From a virus, in the IMG/VR virus record IMGVR_UViG_3300020428_000039, positions 1-35,036 of that record: DNA of 35,036 nucleotides. One strand, given 5' to 3'. Below are positions 6,435 to 30,774 of the stretch, piece after piece. Positions within the stretch are counted from its first letter, which is position 1. Each line of letters opens with the position of its first letter. The translations under genes were made by a program, and so were the position numbers. Under the pieces are notes generated by a model, which was not told the origin of the DNA, ran no database searches, and was given only the letters and a program-made list of their open reading frames with translations.

Positions 6435-9400
6435 TTAGAATTTAATCTCTTCCCCGACGTATGCTTGGCTGAAATGGCCGAAACAATAGTCCTGCACTAC
6501 CACAAATCCTTCGTCGGGGTGTTTTAAAGAACTTGTAATGTTTGGTCGGACTAATTCTTTGTTTAAAACCTCTCCAGCATTTATAAGAGAAGTTTTAGGT
6601 AACTGTGTATTTTTAGCATCTATTACTGCTTGAAGTCTCGTTAAGCTAATATGTATATTTGCTGCTATAATTTCGCTGAGCAGTCCTACATTGCTTATTT
6701 TTGGTTTTGTAACATATTTAGTTTCTATTACTGCTTTTGCTGTTATTTTTGTAAGAGTACTTGTATATTCTTTTGAATAATACTTAAACTCGCGAACAGT
6801 TTTTGCAACATTTTCAAAATGATGAAATCCTACAAAAGCATTACTTTTTGCAGTTGAACTACTAGTTTTATTTGCCGTATAGTAAGTGATTCTTTCTGCT
6901 GTTTTTACAGTAGGTAAATCAGTTAATTCGGTATAATTTTTTTCTAATCTTTTTGATACATTGCTGGCTGTTCTTAATATTAGTGGAAAAATAAACCCTA
7001 CAAAAATATTATTATCCACTACATTTGTAATACTTGAGGCATTTTTTTCAAGTCTTTTTTGAGCTAATTCTATTGCACTTGCTTGATTGAAAATTTGTTT
7101 TAAAAATGCTGGAAGAAATACATCTCGTGTAGTTGTTACAACATTTACAGGATACTTTGCTTTATGTACAAGTACAGGATCTGTTACTGCCTGTGACTTA
7201 TCTATATGTATTTCTTTTTTCGGCTGGACATCCGGTAATGTACTTATATTTATCATTTCCGAGCCTGAGTCAGCAAAAACTTCTCTTGCTGGAGTGCTTA
7301 TATATCTAACACCATTTTCAAATAAGGGATCCCATTTTACTATTTTGCCATAATCTGCATGCTCTGTATCTGTTATTTCTACAAACTCTTTCACCTCTAT
7401 CTCATGAGTAAGCACTGTTGTATTATAATTAATATCAAAATAACTAAGAGTACTATAATGATTGCCGACTATATCTATAGCCATTTGAGTTCCTTGTCCA
7501 AAAACAGATTGTGCAGTAAAGGCTCCTCTTATGGAGTCATTAAATGGAGACGTATTCAAGTTTGTCCACGTTCCAAAATATGGTTTATTAGAATTTCCAA
7601 TTCCATTTACATCAGTATGGGAAGCTCCCAATGTATCTGTATAGTTTACTGGAGCTATTGTATATTGAGTATCGCCCCAAGGAGTTGAGCTTACTTCATA
7701 ATCATTGTTCGTATCCCAATAAGTAGCTGAACCAAGAGATGATGATGATACTTCAACTCCATCGACGTACATAACCCCGGGCCTGCTTCTAGTAAAATAA
7801 TATGGATTTACTCCCATATATGCTATGCCTGCTCCTGCAGCAGCAGTAGTATTAAATTTTGAAAACATTTTTACTTGAAATAGTGCCGCATCTATTCTTG
7901 CGATATTAGTTGGACTACTTCCTACTGAACCCGTGGCATTTCCAGAATAGCTAGGAGTTGGTGAGTTATTATAATTATTACCGCCTCTTGCAAATCCTCC
8001 GGCACCGGCAGTATTTGTTATTGTTCTCCAATAAGGCTCAACAGTAGATGATGTAGGATGTGAGTATTCCCACGTATTTCCAAGAGTGTACTGATGTAAT
8101 CCTTGATTATATCTTGCAACTCTATGTGCTACATGAGTACTCTCAAAAGATGTACGAGCTAAATAAATTTCACCTTGTTCTATAAAATAAGCTGTTTTAC
8201 TTGCAGAGCTTCCTCCTCCTAACGATACCATTGTCGTAACTTGTGTTCTTCTTGCATTACCAGTAATTGCATGAACATCAAGCTCATATTTTAATTTAAA
8301 TCTTTTATAACCTCTACTTGTTGAATATGTCGTATCTTCAACAACTGTAGGTATATAAAGAGATTCTCTCAAGATATTAGTACGATTTGCATTTGTAATT
8401 ACTAAAGCATCTCCCATTAAATCGTTAAAAACATTGTGCGTATTATTTGATATATCATGCTGCTCTCTTGATCCTAAAAAGCTATTTGTTGGAGAGCTTA
8501 CAGTACCGTTTGCCCTCGAAAAATTTGAATTTCCATTTTTTAAAGCTGTCCAATAATCTCCAAACGTAGCATATGCGTTGCTGCCTGAATTTCTCATAGA
8601 CCCTGTAGTTGCAAAAGGAAAATCTTCAAGCACAGTTGTTGTTCTATCAGAATATATTGGATCAGCAATTGTGCTTTCAAGTTTAGTCTTATCTATTTTA
8701 AGCTCTTTTCCGATACTATGTAAAAAATTTACCACATTTCTTGGCATTGGAGCGTGTGCGGGAATAACTATACTTGAGGCTGTGCCAAGAGAATCTGGCT
8801 TTGCTTCTTGCTTAAAAAATATTCTATCAAAAGCAATAGTTACTTTTGATTGTTCAAAATCGTCTGCTTTTCGTTTAAAATACTTTGCAGGAATTGATGT
8901 AGCAGAAAAAGCACTTTCATAATAGTGTCCTTTTGTTACATCTACTTGAGTTCCTGTTGCACTACTCTGTCTTGGAATAAGCATTTGTATAACTAAAGGA
9001 TCTTTTTGAAATCCTACAGTACTAAATGCTGCTATATTTGCATTTTTTGAAATTCCATGATCTACAGTTCCTAAATTACTTCTATATTGTCTACCCTGCA
9101 ATAAAAAAGAAGTTGCAGATGTATTTGATGCTTTAGGAGCTATTAAATTTTTTGTAGGAACTTCCGAAAGCGATGAAAATATAGATGTTTTTTGTCCTGT
9201 AAAATATTTTACGGCAGGTAATGAAGTAGTATTTAATACATCTAAATTTAACTGTCCTTTTATTAAAAAATCTGATAAAGATGTAGTACTTAATTTATTT
9301 CCCGTAAAATATTTTGTATTTATTCCAGAAAGAGACTTAACTGTACTTGTCTTTATTCCTGTAAAATATTTTTCTATTTTTGCAGTCTGTATCTGTGCAT

Positions 9401-11753
9401 TGCTAAACTTTAAGATTCCTTTTATAAATACATCATTTGTTTTAATAGAGTCTGATTTAATTCCTGTAAAATATGTAGTTCTTTCTGCTGTTTTTGATGA
9501 TAAAATTGATTCTGTTTTTTTCGTAAAATACTTTAATATTTTATCTAAGCGAACAATCATAAATTCTGGAACAAATTTTCCAGGAATTACAAATTCACTT
9601 GCTACTCTTGGTTTTGAATATTCATTATCTGTAACCGCATCTGATCCTCTTCTAAACGGAACTGCAGGAACATTTGTAGTAGTTGTTATTGAACTACGGT
9701 ATGTACTAACATTAGTAGTGCTTGATGTAGAATACCAGCTTGCTACATAATTTGGATTAAATGGAGCATTTGTATGATTATAAGTAGTGCCAGTATATAA
9801 TGGATAATTTGTTGGACCTGGAGAGCCAACTGCAATATCATCAGCATGTGGAATTATATAAACTGCAAATCCATAATCATTGGTTCCTCGTGCAGACATA
9901 CCTGTTGTAACTGTATATGGAGCAAGATTATTAATTTGAGTATAAATACTTGCTGGCTGTGTTAAGAATCCATTTGCAATGCCATCATAAGCAGTATTTG
10001 TTAATCCGTTTGCAGATGCAAACTTTCTAAAAAACTGAGTACCAGCAGTCAGAAGGCGATTATTACTTGTTCCTCCTAATGTTGCAAAATCAGGATCTGT
10101 ATTCAACATTAAAAATTGTATATTATTTTGACCATATACAACTGGAGTATCATGTTTTATATACCCATTTCCATCAACATCTAACACTGCTGTTAATAAA
10201 TTTAGTGTGCCAGCCGGGGCTCTATCATCAATTCCTCCTACAAAATATATAGTAGGAGGTTTTGTATAACCAGGCCCTAGTAAATTAGAGGTACTATTCT
10301 GATCTACAAAATGTTGTATTCTCAATAACTCATAGAACTGTCCAGTTGCCGTACTACTTGTAGTATATCCTGCAACTGCAGGAATAGAATTTATTCCCGA
10401 AGTTACTACTCTATGAGAAATTTTATCAACAGTTTTTGGAGTTTCTGCTGTATTAACGTTTGCTGTCGAAAATGCGTTCTTTGTTACTTTTTTAAATATT
10501 TGAATAGTTCTAATAGCTAAAAATTCTCTAATGAGACGACCAGGTATTAAATCTGTATCAAAACTTACACTACTTGTTTTTCCTGCAGTAAATGTTTTTA
10601 GTGGCTCTAGTGCTGTTGTTTGAAAAATATCTCCAAAACCTTTATAAGATTTATCAATATACTTAAATACAGATGAAACTGGATTAATAACTTCTGATGC
10701 TAGTATTCCCTTTATAAACAGCGAATTTAATCCAAGATTGCTTGTTTTTCCTCCAGTAAATGTTTTTAGCGGTTCTAGTGCTGTTGTTTGTGCTGTTCCT
10801 CCAAAGCCTTTGTAAGATTTATTAATATACTTAAATACTTGCTCTACTGGAGTTATTTTTTCTGGAACAAAAGGTCCACGAAGTATTAAATGATTAAAAT
10901 TAACAATATTAGTTATATTAGTATTTCTTATTCTTAGTACTTGTACATAAAGACTTTTTAGGTTTTGAGTTCCTCCTGCCCAGTGGTTGGGTACTCCAAC
11001 TATACTTTTTGTTCGATCTATTTCTCTACGGTAAATAGCCTGGGTAAGAACTTGTTCCGTAAGCCCTACAGCATTGCTTCGAACCGCTCCTATATCAAAT
11101 ACAGGATTTTCGGACGCTAGACTTGCATTTGATACTTTTCCAAGTATTGGGGTAATAAGTGCTAACGAACTAGTTTTATTTTTTGTATTAAGTATACTTC
11201 GTGATGTTGTCTTTTGAGCAAGATCTACCAGTTGTGCAGTATTAAGTAAAGTTTTGCTAACTTTTAAATCATCTAAATCAATTATACTTGTAGCATTTAC
11301 TACACTATTTGCATTAACATACTTGATCCAAACGTGGGCAACAAATCGAATACCTTCTGCAAGAATTTCTTGATACGGTTTCGGATCATTAACTGAAAAC
11401 GCTTGACTTTTTGCTTGTGCAACATATAAAGTTGCTAAGTCTTGTAATGCTATATTCTGTGCTTTTGGACGTTCTAAAATTTTTGGATTATGAACTACTA
11501 CTTTGGTAGGATTAAAACTAAGTTTATAATCAAATAATTTAACATTATTTTCAATAACAGCTTTATCAACCTTAAGCGGTATTGACTCCGTTATTGATTT
11601 TACACTTTTAACTGCTGCATGATTCTCTTTATGAACCGGATGAATTACAGGAGTATCTGTTACAACTGTTTTTACAACAGGAATATTTAACCGTAAAAGT
11701 GATACTTTCGGTCTATTGATAATTAAGGGTTCTACCGCAAACTTAGCAGGCAT
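6435..11753 (-). CDS. Giant repeat-mosaic virion protein (1772 residues), function unknown
   Basis: I cannot name a family for most of this protein. Degenerate repeat tracts alternate with globular blocks. Tract 1 (about 1-430) includes a tandem unit of 56 residues at about 305-394 (FKYI[ND]KSYKGFG then QTTALEPLKTFT). Tract 2 (about 740-900) has four YFTGxK motifs near residues 759, 793, 813 and 847, some followed by FLIKG or VFIKG. Tract 3 (about 1500-1745) has RLEKN and YYTANKTS motifs. The globular blocks at about 440-730 and 920-1490 are rich in Gly, Ser, Thr, Asn and Tyr, with no recognised catalytic motif. The C-terminal DYCFGHFSQAYVGEEIKF resembles, from memory, the DYxxxxYFAEDYVGE ending of large cyanophage structural proteins. 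I saw no signal peptide or membrane segment. Its place between a BppU-like protein and the fibres suggests a baseplate or fibre-support role. Confidence 0.7.
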   Translation of the reverse strand: MPAKFAVEPLIINRPKVSLLRLNIPVVKTVVTDTPVIHPVHKENHAAVKSVKSITESIPLKVDKAVIENNVKLFDYKLSFNPTKVVVHNPKILERPKAQNIALQDLATLYVAQAKSQAFSVNDPKPYQEILAEGIRFVAHVWIKYVNANSVVNATSIIDLDDLKVSKTLLNTAQLVDLAQKTTSRSILNTKNKTSSLALITPILGKVSNASLASENPVFDIGAVRSNAVGLTEQVLTQAIYRREIDRTKSIVGVPNHWAGGTQNLKSLYVQVLRIRNTNITNIVNFNHLILRGPFVPEKITPVEQVFKYINKSYKGFGGTAQTTALEPLKTFTGGKTSNLGLNSLFIKGILASEVINPVSSVFKYIDKSYKGFGDIFQTTALEPLKTFTAGKTSSVSFDTDLIPGRLIREFLAIRTIQIFKKVTKNAFSTANVNTAETPKTVDKISHRVVTSGINSIPAVAGYTTSSTATGQFYELLRIQHFVDQNSTSNLLGPGYTKPPTIYFVGGIDDRAPAGTLNLLTAVLDVDGNGYIKHDTPVVYGQNNIQFLMLNTDPDFATLGGTSNNRLLTAGTQFFRKFASANGLTNTAYDGIANGFLTQPASIYTQINNLAPYTVTTGMSARGTNDYGFAVYIIPHADDIAVGSPGPTNYPLYTGTTYNHTNAPFNPNYVASWYSTSSTTNVSTYRSSITTTTNVPAVPFRRGSDAVTDNEYSKPRVASEFVIPGKFVPEFMIVRLDKILKYFTKKTESILSSKTAERTTYFTGIKSDSIKTNDVFIKGILKFSNAQIQTAKIEKYFTGIKTSTVKSLSGINTKYFTGNKLSTTSLSDFLIKGQLNLDVLNTTSLPAVKYFTGQKTSIFSSLSEVPTKNLIAPKASNTSATSFLLQGRQYRSNLGTVDHGISKNANIAAFSTVGFQKDPLVIQMLIPRQSSATGTQVDVTKGHYYESAFSATSIPAKYFKRKADDFEQSKVTIAFDRIFFKQEAKPDSLGTASSIVIPAHAPMPRNVVNFLHSIGKELKIDKTKLESTIADPIYSDRTTTVLEDFPFATTGSMRNSGSNAYATFGDYWTALKNGNSNFSRANGTVSSPTNSFLGSREQHDISNNTHNVFNDLMGDALVITNANRTNILRESLYIPTVVEDTTYSTSRGYKRFKLKYELDVHAITGNARRTQVTTMVSLGGGSSASKTAYFIEQGEIYLARTSFESTHVAHRVARYNQGLHQYTLGNTWEYSHPTSSTVEPYWRTITNTAGAGGFARGGNNYNNSPTPSYSGNATGSVGSSPTNIARIDAALFQVKMFSKFNTTAAAGAGIAYMGVNPYYFTRSRPGVMYVDGVEVSSSSLGSATYWDTNNDYEVSSTPWGDTQYTIAPVNYTDTLGASHTDVNGIGNSNKPYFGTWTNLNTSPFNDSIRGAFTAQSVFGQGTQMAIDIVGNHYSTLSYFDINYNTTVLTHEIEVKEFVEITDTEHADYGKIVKWDPLFENGVRYISTPAREVFADSGSEMINISTLPDVQPKKEIHIDKSQAVTDPVLVHKAKYPVNVVTTTRDVFLPAFLKQIFNQASAIELAQKRLEKNASSITNVVDNNIFVGFIFPLILRTASNVSKRLEKNYTELTDLPTVKTAERITYYTANKTSSSTAKSNAFVGFHHFENVAKTVREFKYYSKEYTSTLTKITAKAVIETKYVTKPKISNVGLLSEIIAANIHISLTRLQAVIDAKNTQLPKTSLINAGEVLNKELVRPNITSSLKHPDEGFVVVQDYCFGHFSQAYVGEEIKF
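10573..10838 (-). repeat. Direct repeat, two 98-base copies 168 bases apart
   Basis: Copies at 10573-10670 and 10741-10838 differ at about 13 of 98 positions by my count. Both read in the same frame and encode the tandem KTFT[GA]GKTS / SYKGFG unit. High DNA similarity suggests a fairly recent internal duplication in the giant virion protein. Confidence 0.85.
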
Positions 11754-11756
11754 TAC

Positions 11757-12101
11757 TTATCCAAACGCTTCTCTGACTTGTATGGATACAGGATCGAATA
11801 TTGTTTGAAAAGTGGAAGGGCTAGTATCTCCAAACTCAAGCTCTATTTCCCCTTCATAATATCCTTCCGAAACATCACTATGAGTTAAAAATGTACCTAA
11901 ATCAAATATATAGTTATTATTTACTAGGGTTGCTACAACACCTGCACTTGTTGGCAGAACTGTTGTAGTTCCAACTTTTCGAAGACGCATTCTAACTATT
12001 GTTGATCCGCCTGCCTGATATGTTGTCCCTAGATCTTCTCTTACGAGCGTGACCTGAAGATTTGATTTACTATCACCTTTTACTACCGCTACCGTACTCA
12101 T
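11757..12101 (-). CDS. BppU-like baseplate/tail protein (Ig-fold)
   Basis: A 114-residue protein that resembles the N-terminal domain of phage upper baseplate protein BppU and similar small Ig-like tail proteins. It has VVKGDSKSNLQVTLVRED, a central RMRLRKVGTTTVLP strand pair, a GYYEGEIELEFG hairpin, and ends in the typical VREAFG. The family caps or links baseplate and receptor-binding parts. It is the first gene after the consensus promoter at 12158-12186, with an AGGAT site about 11 bases before the ATG. Its stop lies 3 bases before the ATG of the 1772-residue gene, so the two are probably coupled. The family call rests on sequence pattern alone; it could simply be an adaptor for the giant protein. 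Confidence 0.7.
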   Translation of the reverse strand: MSTVAVVKGDSKSNLQVTLVREDLGTTYQAGGSTIVRMRLRKVGTTTVLPTSAGVVATLVNNNYIFDLGTFLTHSDVSEGYYEGEIELEFGDTSPSTFQTIFDPVSIQVREAFG

Positions 12102-12157
12102 AGAATTGGAATCCTGTCGATACTTTACCTAGGGAATTTATTTTCCACTTACTCAGT

Positions 12158-12186
12158 ATTATAACAATAAGAACCTATATTGTCAA
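12158..12186 (-). promoter_or_regulatory. Perfect consensus sigma70 promoter for the fibre operon
   Basis: On the minus strand TTGACA (12181-12186) and TATAAT (12158-12163) are separated by exactly 17 bases; both hexamers are perfect. The likely start is near 12151, about 50 bases before the ATG of the BppU-like gene. Directly upstream is ACTTAAAAATATTTC, an A/T tract resembling a sigma70 UP element and identical to that at the other intergenic promoter near 29382. This 112-base gap is the only sizeable break between the glycosyltransferase and fibre genes. Confidence 0.9.
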
Positions 12187-12213
12187 GAAATATTTTTAAG
12201 TATGTAACTAGCT

Positions 12214-13188
12214 TTAAAGTATAGTTTTTAACCTAGCTATGGTTGTTTCTTTATTATAACACAGATAATTTAAACAATACCATGCTAACCATTTTCTACT
12301 TAATAATTTATTAAACCACGATAAATTATTGATATACTCTTTTATTTTTTGCAAGTGTCGTAAATCTTTAGTAATCCAATGATACTCAGGATAACCATAA
12401 CTTATAATTGGTACATCGTACATCATGCATTCTATTCCAGAGGTACTATTTTCAGTAATTGCAACTTTAGTATGTGGTAGAATATCATGCAAACTTTCAA
12501 AACCAGAAAACACTATTACTCCTTCCTTTTCCCAAGCATCAATAGTTGATTGATAATAAATCCATGCATCTTTTGGTTTTAAGGTAGGATGTATCTTTAG
12601 AACAATATTATAATCTTTTTTTAAAAAATTAACAATTTCTACGACTTTTTGCCAATGACTTCCAAAAGAAAATTTTGTTACTGTTTCATCTCCCGGCATT
12701 TGTCCTAAAATAAGAATATGATCTTTAGGAATATTTTTTACTCTTGAAAACTGTAAATCTTTAGATTCTGACCATTTATTTACTCTTTCTGTTTTGAATT
12801 CTTTAACTTTTGTCTTAAAAAATTTAGTTTCATCTACATCTGTGAATAATGGTTTATTATATGTAATATCTGAAGCACATGCATAACCTTCAATGTCAAG
12901 AGAGAAATAGTCCGGAGTAGGTGCTGTTGGTTTAAAGAATAATGTTTTTTTGCCTGTGTTAAAATTATTTGCTAGTATATCTTCTAAGTAAGTATGATTA
13001 TATAGATAAATATCATCATTAGAATCTATAATTCCTTTTGTAACTTTATAAGGAGTATTAAACTGTAAATAATTGCTTACACAACACTCTATATCAAGTT
13101 CAATAAAAGATGCAATTATTACATTTAAAATACGTTCCCAATTTCCATCTAATGTTTGAAAACGATTTCCACAAATATTAACTTTCAT
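12214..13188 (-). CDS. Capsule-type glycosyltransferase (Caps_synth/KpsC-S-like)
   Basis: A 324-residue protein with the C-terminal half of a GT-B-like fold. ILGQMPGDETVT at about 160-171 begins the second domain. IHPTLKP at 199-205 and ENSTSGIECMMYDVPIISYG at 246-265 match the capsule polysaccharide synthesis family of KpsC and KpsS, whose conserved HP and NSTSGxE motifs take part in binding the CMP-Kdo donor. The N-terminal 130 residues are less clear. The last 35 residues are aromatic and basic and may bind a membrane surface or a partner. The ATG lies inside the end of the oxygenase gene (11-base overlap), so the two are translated together. The sugar and acceptor are unknown; candidates are a fibre protein or host surface glycan. 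The gene looks more AT-rich than its neighbours, as expected for acquired cargo. Confidence 0.75.
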   Translation of the reverse strand: MKVNICGNRFQTLDGNWERILNVIIASFIELDIECCVSNYLQFNTPYKVTKGIIDSNDDIYLYNHTYLEDILANNFNTGKKTLFFKPTAPTPDYFSLDIEGYACASDITYNKPLFTDVDETKFFKTKVKEFKTERVNKWSESKDLQFSRVKNIPKDHILILGQMPGDETVTKFSFGSHWQKVVEIVNFLKKDYNIVLKIHPTLKPKDAWIYYQSTIDAWEKEGVIVFSGFESLHDILPHTKVAITENSTSGIECMMYDVPIISYGYPEYHWITKDLRHLQKIKEYINNLSWFNKLLSRKWLAWYCLNYLCYNKETTIARLKTIL

Positions 13189-13807
13189 TATACCAGCCAG
13201 TTATTGCAACTCTTGCATAAGGAGCTCGCTCACTAACTTCGCTTACAAAATGTGGAACGCCATCATTTTCTAATTGCATAAGTGTTAAGGTATTAAACTC
13301 AGGATATATTACTTGAGGTTCGTCACCAAGAATATGTAAAGCTCCACCATATTCGGGTAACCAATTTGGAGTTAGTTGATATATAAAAGCAACACCGCGA
13401 TTATGATCTTTATGAGTATTTAAAAAGTCTCCAGAAGAATATACAGAGGTAAATGACTCAAAAATATAAGGATTTTTAAAACTACAAACTTCTGAGACTA
13501 GAGTTTTTACTTCTTTTTCAAGATATTGTTTTTTAAAGTTGCACTCATAGCAAGTACAAGTTGGAACGTGAGTAGTACTTCTCCTAAATTTATAGCTAAA
13601 AGCTCCAGTTTGAAAACTATTTGTAACTAAAACGTCTTCTTTCTTACGTTCACTTGTTCCAAATGCAGTATCTGTAAAATATTTGGGTTTTTCTAATCCT
13701 GCATGCTTATAAGCGTAGGACCACCAGTTGCTTGGCGTATTATAAATTGCTGTTGAAATTGCTTTTGCCTCTTGTTCTGGCAAAAAATCTTTGATAATTT
13801 TTATCAT
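13178..13807 (-). CDS. 2-oxoglutarate/Fe(II)-dependent oxygenase, prolyl-hydroxylase type
   Basis: A 209-residue dioxygenase of the prolyl 4-hydroxylase type, which couples 2-oxoglutarate decarboxylation to hydroxylation. Iron ligands are H132 and D134 (THKDHNRG) and H186 (VPHFVSEV). R199 in ARVAITGWY is placed to bind 2-oxoglutarate. All key residues are present, so the enzyme should be active. C84, C86 and C89 (TCTCYECN) with nearby H80 form a cluster that could hold a structural metal. The gene starts 12 bases after the J stop, with an AGGAA site, and overlaps the glycosyltransferase by 11 bases. The substrate is not shown; protein proline or lysine, or a small molecule, are possible. The proximity of collagen-like fibres makes a fibre protein worth testing. 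Confidence 0.82.
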   Translation of the reverse strand: MIKIIKDFLPEQEAKAISTAIYNTPSNWWSYAYKHAGLEKPKYFTDTAFGTSERKKEDVLVTNSFQTGAFSYKFRRSTTHVPTCTCYECNFKKQYLEKEVKTLVSEVCSFKNPYIFESFTSVYSSGDFLNTHKDHNRGVAFIYQLTPNWLPEYGGALHILGDEPQVIYPEFNTLTLMQLENDGVPHFVSEVSERAPYARVAITGWYNES

Positions 13808-28450: not shown

Positions 28451-29285
28451 TAGCCTTTCACATTATGAGTATAATTCTTGCCACTCCCTGCCGATTTCTT
28501 TTCAGCTGCTTTTCTTTGCGATTCTTGCTCCTCTGCTCGTTTTTGAACGATTAAACTTTCGTACATTTTCATAAAATAAAATACTTCTCGTCGATCTTCA
28601 ACTTCATATAAGTCAAATATATCATTTAAACATGTCCAGTCTTTTCCTAAGTAGGATCCCGACATTCCTTCCCAGCGATCAGATAAAAGTGCAAATATAA
28701 AAAATGCCACTTGAACTTCTGCAGGAAAATCGGCAGGTTCGAGTGGCATTCTTTCGGGATCTGGCTCCTCTCCGAGCTGTTCACATATAAGTAAGTATTT
28801 ATCTACATCTATTTTACTAGTAGTTTGCTTTACTAATTTTTCAAGTAGAGTTTGTACTTCTCCTACTTGTTCCCAGTAAAATTTTCTAAATCACCTACTG
28901 TCTCTGTTACCCAAGTATCAAACTCTGTTGAGTTCTTCATAAGTAACTCTGCATTCTCTTTAGAATAGAGTAAGGTATCATCCGGATCGTAAGCTGCTAC
29001 ATCTACCAAAAGAAGCTCTTCTAGGTAACGATATTTAAAGCCTGACCAACCTTTAATAACTGCTTTACAATACTCTACAATAAATATTTCTTCGTTCAAT
29101 GACTCTTCGGGCTGACGAGTTTTCTTACTAAACTTTGTTGTAAGACACCTTTTTCGTAGCTTTATTAACTCTTCTCGTGCTAAATGACATAAATCTACAG
29201 TGAAACCTTCATATCCGGGAAAATTAATTGAAATTGTTTTACTTGGAGTCATTAAACTCGCTAAAGAAACAGGGGTGTCGCTCAT
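28450..29285 (-). CDS. GT: Tail assembly chaperone GT fusion made by minus-1 frameshift
   Basis: The reading frame from the end of G to the tape measure has no stop: it is open in the minus-1 frame from the slippery site down to the TAA at 28450. Ribosomes that slip on A AAT TTT add about 142 residues (starting YWEQVGEV) to the first 136 of G, giving a fusion of about 278 residues. This is the lambda G/GT arrangement, in which GT binds the tape measure through its T part. The T part is helical and charged at its end (QKRAEEQESQRKAAEKK). An ATG at 28749 lies inside the T part but has no convincing ribosome site, so I do not treat it as a separate start. Confidence 0.85.
28863..29285 (-). CDS. 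G: Tail assembly chaperone G
   Basis: A 140-residue chaperone, equivalent to lambda gpG, that keeps the tape measure soluble before tube assembly. It begins MSDTPVSLASLMTPSK, with SINFPGYEGFTVDL and a helical middle. I choose the ATG at 29285 because AAAGGA lies 9 bases upstream; a longer frame to a TTG at 29303 would start inside this site. The end (ENFTGNK, then TAG at 28863-28865) carries the slippery heptamer. It is the first gene after the promoter at 29359-29387, so it may be transcribed apart from the major tail gene. Family assignment comes mainly from position and the frameshift. Confidence 0.88.
   Translation of the reverse strand: MSDTPVSLASLMTPSKTISINFPGYEGFTVDLCHLAREELIKLRKRCLTTKFSKKTRQPEESLNEEIFIVEYCKAVIKGWSGFKYRYLEELLLVDVAAYDPDDTLLYSKENAELLMKNSTEFDTWVTETVGDLENFTGNK
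28878..28884 (-). promoter_or_regulatory. Minus-1 programmed ribosomal frameshift site (A AAT TTT)
   Basis: In the G frame the codons read GAA AAT TTT ACT GGG AAC AAG TAG. The heptamer A AAT TTT fits the X XXY YYZ slippery pattern exactly. A slip of minus 1 enters the frame AAA TTT TAC TGG, which is open to 28450. The stop of G follows 12 bases after the heptamer. I did not find a clear pseudoknot by eye. Confidence 0.88.
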
Positions 29286-29315
29286 AACATAGGATCCTTT
29301 CAAATTTAAGTGGTG

Positions 29316-29349
29316 AAGCGGGGGTACTTAGCCCCCGCTTTTATATTTT
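29316..29349 (+). terminator. GC-rich hairpin; plus-strand intrinsic terminator and minus-strand leader hairpin
   Basis: AAGCGGGGG (29316-29324), a 7-base loop and CCCCCGCTT (29332-29340) form a perfect 9-pair stem. On the plus strand it is followed by TTATATTTT, the form of an intrinsic terminator, although no plus-strand gene is visible. On the minus strand there is no T-run, and the hairpin falls about 12-36 bases into the leader of the transcript from the promoter just upstream. It may stop antisense transcripts or stabilise the leader. Confidence 0.75.
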
Positions 29350-29358
29350 CTACTACAT

Positions 29359-29387
29359 AGTATATTTTATTTAAACAAAAAAGTCAA
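29359..29387 (-). promoter_or_regulatory. Sigma70-type promoter upstream of the chaperone/tape measure genes
   Basis: On the minus strand TTGACT (29382-29387) and TATACT (29359-29364) are 17 bases apart, each one mismatch from consensus. The likely start is near 29352, about 65 bases before the ATG of G. The block ACTTAAAAATATTTCTTGAC (29383-29402) is identical to that at the fibre-operon promoter. The site lies in the 100-base gap after the major tail gene. Confidence 0.82.
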
Positions 29388-29403
29388 GAAATATTTTTAA
29401 GTT

Positions 29404-30774
29404 CTATACTCTATAGGTTAACGTTGCGTCGTCTGCTCCAGAAATGGTGGAGGGAAGAGCCGCAAATGTAGTATCCAATGAAATTACATCTTCAATACTG
29501 TGTGTTGGAAGTTCAATATGGGAAGTTGGGCAGTGGATTTCAAGACGTGGGCCACTACCTCCAGCAGCTCCTCCGATTCCAAACTTTAAGTCAAAGTTGT
29601 TTGTAATAACAGTATTTGCATCGATAAGATCCCTGAACAAGTCAGCACTACCATCATTACCTGTATTTAGATAACATGTAAAGTTTCCACCAACATTTCT
29701 ACTTCCTGCTACTGCTGCAAAAGGTTGGTTTACTTCACCAAGTGTTACTGGAGTCAAGTATTCAATATTATTAGACAAAGTAACATTTCCACCAGTAAGT
29801 GTAGCAGTATAAGAACTTGCAAAAGTTGTTGTATCAGCAGGCGTAATTGTAAGTTGCGTAAGACGATTACGAATATAATTGCTTGTTAAACTAATTCCTG
29901 CAGTTATAGTCGGAGTTGGAATAATTGCTTCTGAAATTATTTTACCAAGACCTGACCAGTTAATTTGTGCAATACCATCAACATCAAAATCAATTGAAGC
30001 TTCGTTTACAACACAATTTTCAAGTTTGTACGTTACTGCTCTTTGAAAAGTAACAGCTCCGCCACCTGCAATACCGCCACCCTGTGCAGCTGCAATAGTA
30101 ATTTGAGTTCCACCAGCTGTATTTCCTGTTACTACAGTGGCAGTCTCAGTTACTCCTGAACTATCTCCTGTAAAGAGCATTACATCTCCAGCTGCAATTG
30201 TATTTGCTACTGCAACGGCTCCGTCAAGAGTAATTGTAGTGCCAGTTTGAGCACTGCCTGATGCAACATTATCAGTATGAGTAGATGCAGTATTTGCACC
30301 AAGTGCAAAATAAATATTTGCTTCTCCAAGAGCCGCAGTATTCGACTGAGCAAGGTCAAAAACAGCAGTAGTTCCACTATGTGCTGAATATGCTGTTCCA
30401 CTTGCTGCAGATTTAAACTCATTTGCAGTATTGTCCCAATATGCTTTTCCGTTAAAGAGTCCCCAAAGTACTTCTTCTACAGCATGTACGTTTGAAGAGT
30501 CAAATCCGCTAGAAGCAAAAGGTCGCACATAAGTACTAAAGCTCCACTCTGCGGGAGCATATGAATCATTAAAGTTTCGTCGTCCACGTCTACTTACACC
30601 GGTAGAAGATTCCATCTCTGACAGTGTAATTTCAGTAGCATTTTGAGCTTGGCTAAAGGAGTATCCCTCCAGTACGGGAACTTCCCATATAACACTACCA
30701 GAAGTACTGTTATTAGCCGCGAGAATTTCGATATATACTTTCGTATCTCTACTAAAATATAAATTGTCTGACAT
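29404..30774 (-). CDS. V: Major tail tube protein
   Basis: A 456-residue tail tube protein, the V position in the lambda order. It starts MSDNLYFSRDTKVYIEI, with FSQAQNATEITLSEME at about 39-54 and a WSFSTYVRPF strand, features common in marine siphovirus tube proteins. The middle (about 120-240) is rich in Ala, Gly and Thr and may be a surface-exposed added domain. The end has SIEDVISLDTTFAALP. It is longer than the minimal tube fold (about 200 residues), in line with extra domains. An AGGAG site about 7 bases before the ATG at 30774 suggests strong translation. The 61-base gap upstream shows no promoter I can recognise. Confidence 0.85.
   Translation of the reverse strand: MSDNLYFSRDTKVYIEILAANNSTSGSVIWEVPVLEGYSFSQAQNATEITLSEMESSTGVSRRGRRNFNDSYAPAEWSFSTYVRPFASSGFDSSNVHAVEEVLWGLFNGKAYWDNTANEFKSAASGTAYSAHSGTTAVFDLAQSNTAALGEANIYFALGANTASTHTDNVASGSAQTGTTITLDGAVAVANTIAAGDVMLFTGDSSGVTETATVVTGNTAGGTQITIAAAQGGGIAGGGAVTFQRAVTYKLENCVVNEASIDFDVDGIAQINWSGLGKIISEAIIPTPTITAGISLTSNYIRNRLTQLTITPADTTTFASSYTATLTGGNVTLSNNIEYLTPVTLGEVNQPFAAVAGSRNVGGNFTCYLNTGNDGSADLFRDLIDANTVITNNFDLKFGIGGAAGGSGPRLEIHCPTSHIELPTHSIEDVISLDTTFAALPSTISGADDATLTYRV

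Follow-up and report, generated by a model that had tools for sequence, protein, structure and literature searches.

A near-invariant block abutting the −35 hexamer marks a promoter class in a large uncultured clade of T5-like phages

Introduction

The early promoters of phage T5 are read by the host (E. coli σ70) polymerase and have a common discriminator motif; how T5 keeps its pre-early, early and late transcription apart with a single σ70 polymerase is described there as unknown (PMC7472727). UP elements are placed at about −45 to −37 and −58 to −45 (PMC2613000), and the α C-terminal domains can use either of two UP subsites, proximal or distal, one turn apart (PMC2613000; PMC4390567). In rrnB P1, the adenines at −43, −42 and −41 are the most important ones (PMC4390567). 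Among the papers listed for promoters of T5 (including late ones), T5-like (including marine) phages and Demerecviridae, for UP elements and for the string TTCTTGACA, none was seen to report the motif described below.

The DNA analysed here, hereafter the window, is an entire viral record of 35,036 bases, i.e., a fragment, from an uncultured bacterial virus. It stems from a T5-like siphovirus: the large genes of the window lie on the minus strand and code for a siphovirus tail and head module, and approximately 30 to 36% identity to T5-like phages was found for both the tape measure protein and the major tail protein.

Results

Two promoters of the window, here referred to as P1 and P2, share an upstream block. 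The relevant features are as follows.

6435-11753, minus strand: 1772-aa ORF of the tail-fibre region, following the 114-aa gene on the same strand together with tail-fibre genes
11757..12101, minus strand: gene for a 114-aa protein, first after P1, no family match
12158..12163, minus strand: P1 −10 hexamer TATAAT, preceded by TGn, with a predicted transcription start near 12151
12181..12186, minus strand: P1 −35 hexamer TTGACA
12187..12197, minus strand: P1 block AAAAATATTTC, −46 to −36, proximal UP-like module
28863..29303, minus strand: tail assembly chaperone gene, first after P2, with a probable start ATG at 29286
29316..29340, minus strand: GC-rich hairpin in the predicted P2 5′ leader, approximately 10 bases into the predicted transcript
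29359..29364, minus strand: P2 −10 hexamer TATACT
29382..29387, minus strand: P2 −35 hexamer TTGACT
29388..29398, minus strand: P2 block AAAAATATTTC
29404..30774, minus strand: major tail protein gene, directly upstream of P2

The first-pass annotation had pointed to an identical 20-mer, ACTTAAAAATATTTCTTGAC, at 12182-12201 and 29383-29402, and the window indeed contains exactly these two copies, both on the minus strand. A search allowing up to 3 mismatches still returned two matches, compared with a mean of 0.02 in shuffled sequences and two matches in 0/100 shuffles. P1 proved to be the perfect σ70 consensus that had been claimed (TTGACA-17-TATAAT, 12186 to 12158) and is the sole exact TTGACA-N15..19-TATAAT of the window; since at least one such site arose in 12/100 shuffles, the P1 core by itself is not beyond chance. 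P2 (TTGACT-17-TATACT, 29387 to 29359) begins 1 base past the major tail gene, ahead of the tail chaperone gene. Measured against TTGACA, 17±1 bp and TATAAT, P1 matches at 12/12 positions and P2 at 10/12.

The flanks differ, as had also been noted: the identity is limited to 20 bases and ends abruptly on both sides, and the spacers are dissimilar. These features speak against recent duplication or gene conversion of the promoter DNA, which would deprive the identity of special meaning, and so do the conservation of the block across contigs and its presence in the separate contigs L001 and L003, each time ahead of that contig's own −10. Such an event would suit the leading ACTT, which both copies share and which lies outside the class logo (the class consensus covers only the 16 bases AAAAATATTTCTTGAC); altogether we regard it as very improbable.

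The neighbourhood of both promoters has features of its own. The 1772-aa ORF had no match in PHROGs or Pfam, and a capsule-synthesis-like protein and a 2OG-Fe(II) oxygenase are encoded at 12214-13807 (minus strand), between a J-like fibre gene and P1. The P2-type leaders of L010, L011, L014, L015, L017, L118, L195 and L198 keep a hairpin, though one made of other bases, and those of 5 relatives (L100, L114, L173, L187 and L199) lack it. In several relatives it is followed by a T-run, like a terminator right behind the promoter.

Exact copies of the block were found in four IMG/VR contigs, namely, L002 and L004, which are near-identical phages, and L001 and L003, which are other T5-like contigs. 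Among 272 promoter-like sites, drawn partly from loci fetched by the block itself, 29 matched AAAAATAGTTC ahead of the −35 with up to 2 mismatches and only 2 with 3, while the background peaked at approximately 8. A fairer test used 81 sources unselected for the motif, i.e., the window and 80 loci retrieved via the major tail protein. Here, the block preceded 8/8 non-redundant intergenic promoters with up to 1 core mismatch and, with up to 2 core mismatches, 11/17 intergenic sites vs 1/89 within ORFs. Many genic copies devoid of a −10 element, which the first-pass annotation had named as evidence to the contrary, were not seen: in the same 81 sources, a −10 accompanies 38 of the 40 near-copies of the 16-mer. 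Its proposal of a phage-wide promoter class is thus upheld, and the class reaches well past the source phage. In a large uncultured T5-like clade, AAAAATAnTTC immediately 5′ of TTGACA thus constitutes a promoter module.

In records of 88 to 105 kb, exact copies numbered 7 in G001, 6 in G002, 8 in G004 and 7 in G005, with 0 for the reversed control; the same count gave zero copies in G009 and G012. The sister contigs L004, L007 and L008 carry a third copy, with 2 mismatches, ahead of the portal region. Late copies recur at the same sites, namely, upstream of the homologs of T5.153 and T5.156 and, at the P2 position, downstream of the major tail gene, and replication-side copies sit ahead of ligA, ligB and primase, among others. 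A late-specific signal was rejected, as the block with at most 1 mismatch was present at 81/112 early vs 26/36 late promoters, counts with some bias, as the motif had been used to fetch many of the loci; 77/225 promoters of this set were without an assigned module. In the Vibrio T5-like phage PG07, the block was found at 0/11 promoters with up to 1 core mismatch. The sequence of the block, its fixed spacing, its distribution and its gene context are hereby established.

We then scanned all IMG/VR viral contigs with the pattern AAAAATAnTTCTTGAC-N17..19-TATAnT. At least 120 stretches contained the block with a −10, and 105 of the 120 listed had T5 or PG07 homologs. A permuted block yielded 10 stretches, none of them (0/10) T5-like, and a control preserving the A-tract yielded 59, of which 24 had any T5 or PG07 homolog. 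That the block is a chance product of AT-rich intergenic DNA, as the AT-rich genome and the occurrence of the core hexamers in shuffles might suggest, has practically no probability left: the idea is refuted by the block shuffles, the permuted control, the bimodal mismatch distribution and the syntenic conservation.

Matches in cellular sequences comprised at least 117 stretches, mostly from Clostridia, with a T5 or PG07 homolog in 16 of the 117 listed. A general host motif was unsupported, as whole cellular genomes seldom carry the full pattern: it occurred in 2/117 genomes of the order of G015 and in 1/229 of the class of G021, seeds included, and two control patterns occurred in 0/117 and 1/117 of the former genomes vs 2/117 for the block. 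Several of the matching stretches (L258, L276, L221/L238, L253 and L285) carry T5-like phage genes, though they are filed in bacterial or archaeal assemblies, including Parcubacteria, Euryarchaeota and Halieaceae; they are probably misbinned phage.

Whether and where a promoter carries the block seems to reflect the stage of the infection programme to which it belongs. In the three mapped genomes (G001, G002 and G004), block-less promoters cluster beside a homolog of dmp, in T5 the first gene of the pre-early terminal repeat; the block was present at 39/49 strong promoters outside this zone vs 1/20 inside (p=7e-9). By synteny of dmp with T5, the zone would be pre-early; in Pfam, the dmp-like protein has just a sub-threshold phosphatase match. 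G005, in which no dmp homolog was found, was excluded from these counts; it carries the block at 5/11 promoters with up to 1 core mismatch, and its other block matches accompany TTGACT or TATACT cores. The same pattern emerged from 80 loci fetched by the dmp protein, blind to promoters, of which 78 were used (two extra copies of one phage were omitted). Allowing up to 2 mismatches, the block occurred at 11/109 promoters within 3 kb downstream of dmp and at 31/63 elsewhere, the latter set still including loci that are not T5-like.

Zone promoters on the dmp strand had their best block match exactly 10 bp further upstream in 19/51 cases and at the usual place in 14, whereas 1000 shuffles gave a mean of 0.4 at the 10-bp offset and never more than 5, whatever the offset. 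The 47 minus-strand promoters in the zone logo revealed no 10-bp shift; this logo covers loci up to L466, i.e., 51 plus-strand and 47 minus-strand promoters of the 109. Because TTC before TTGACA is common to all classes, to a lesser degree, the class-specific part is the A-tract at −46 to −40. Minus-strand zone promoters, e.g., those of L424, L437 and L446, combine perfect cores with G/C-rich discriminators (cggcgcg, gggtgggg), and such G/C-discriminator promoters occur several per kilobase, unlike in the rest of the genome.

Early and late block promoters also differ after the −10. An AT discriminator was present in 25/30 early vs 0/12 late block promoters of the three genomes (p=6e-7) and in 85/112 early vs 9/36 late promoters across all loci. 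The rule is imperfect, since these 9 late promoters and P2 itself have an AT discriminator.

Discussion

The first-pass annotation had left open whether the block is an UP element or the binding site of a phage activator; our data favour the former, and the latter is less supported. We consider it likely that P1 and P2 are host-σ70 promoters of the late module, that the block is a proximal UP element and general strength module, and that promoter class is given by discriminator and position. Contact with α as well as activity and timing at block promoters are what we infer. In this model, AAAAATATTTC-TTGAC would combine a proximal UP element of near-invariant sequence with an extended −35 (TTCTTGAC), one α C-terminal domain would contact the A-tract at −46 to −42 in the minor groove, and P1 would drive the tail-fibre genes and P2 those for tail assembly. 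Early and late promoters would be told apart by a discriminator that is AT-rich in the former and usually not AT in the latter. Promoters beside dmp would mostly do without the proximal block, many of those in the dmp direction having a similar element at the distal UP position, 10 bp upstream.

Several observations argue for the UP element. P1 and P2 carry AAAAATA at −46 to −40, within the proximal UP subsite (approximately −46 to −37); the −35 is intact; replication and structural promoters use the block alike; a similar element lies one helical turn upstream beside dmp; and the A-tract is equally placed in T5 early promoters. Related phages have the module at their early (replication) promoters too, which suggests a general strength module rather than a late signal. 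On the other hand, UP elements are usually less strict than the block, in which T-41, A-40, T-38, T-37 and C-36 are nearly fixed, and although P1 and P2 have A at −43 and at −42, they have T at −41, an adenine position in rrnB P1. A pure strength role would suit pre-early promoters too, yet 98/109 zone promoters are without the block (up to 2 mismatches). The lack of a shift on the other zone strand, the imperfect discriminator rule and the rarity in cells are further points against the proposed model.

The strictness and fixed spacing, the depletion at zone promoters (11/109; 1/20) and the rarity in cells would suit a site for a phage-encoded pre-early factor that either switches on early and late promoters or protects them when host and pre-early transcription is shut off. 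However, activator-dependent phage promoters of the MotA or Mor type have an activator site in place of a poor or missing −35, and known activators that appropriate the −35 region accompany poor −35s. The −35 hexamers of P1 and P2 are of the consensus type, and with a full-consensus −35 and −10 an activator is unneeded. The element one turn upstream and the A-tract of T5 early promoters fit α, and no candidate protein was identified. We rate such a factor as rather unlikely, although the strictness of the block and its depletion beside dmp make it the foremost alternative.

Returning to the UP element, its geometry might even set temporal class: the α-CTD element would be distal in the pre-early class, early and late promoters would have it one turn closer, the discriminator would split early from late, and a phage-altered polymerase would switch the working position. 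We offer this extension as speculation that is more probably wrong than right. If it were true, a change to the polymerase made by the phage, e.g., a modified or blocked α, would switch the programme via which position works. Irrespective of this, a large uncultured T5-like clade displays class separation in its sequence, in the form of block, block position and discriminator. These three are defined, swappable promoter parts, and the block is a marker for T5-like contigs, including those binned into bacterial or archaeal assemblies.

Of the known systems, rrnB P1-type UP elements resemble the block in having an A-tract between −46 and −40 beside a consensus −35 and a distal alternative one turn upstream. 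Unlike them, the block is a nearly invariant 11-mer with a fixed TTC before the −35 and is repeated across a phage clade. T5 early promoters of the PN25 and PH207 type belong to a T5-like phage, have the A-tract in the same place (AAAA starts at −45 in 26/35) and share an early discriminator starting with AT (AT type in 24/35). In contrast, their −35 is mostly TTGCTW, a form that neither P1 (TTGACA) nor P2 (TTGACT) has, and the bases after the A-tract differ. The T5 late promoters PJ5 and PG25 likewise combine TTGACA or TTGATA, 17 bp, TATACT or TATAAT and an upstream A-tract with structural genes. Each of the two differs from the block by 3 mismatches, and PJ5 precedes the major tail gene, whereas P2 follows it.
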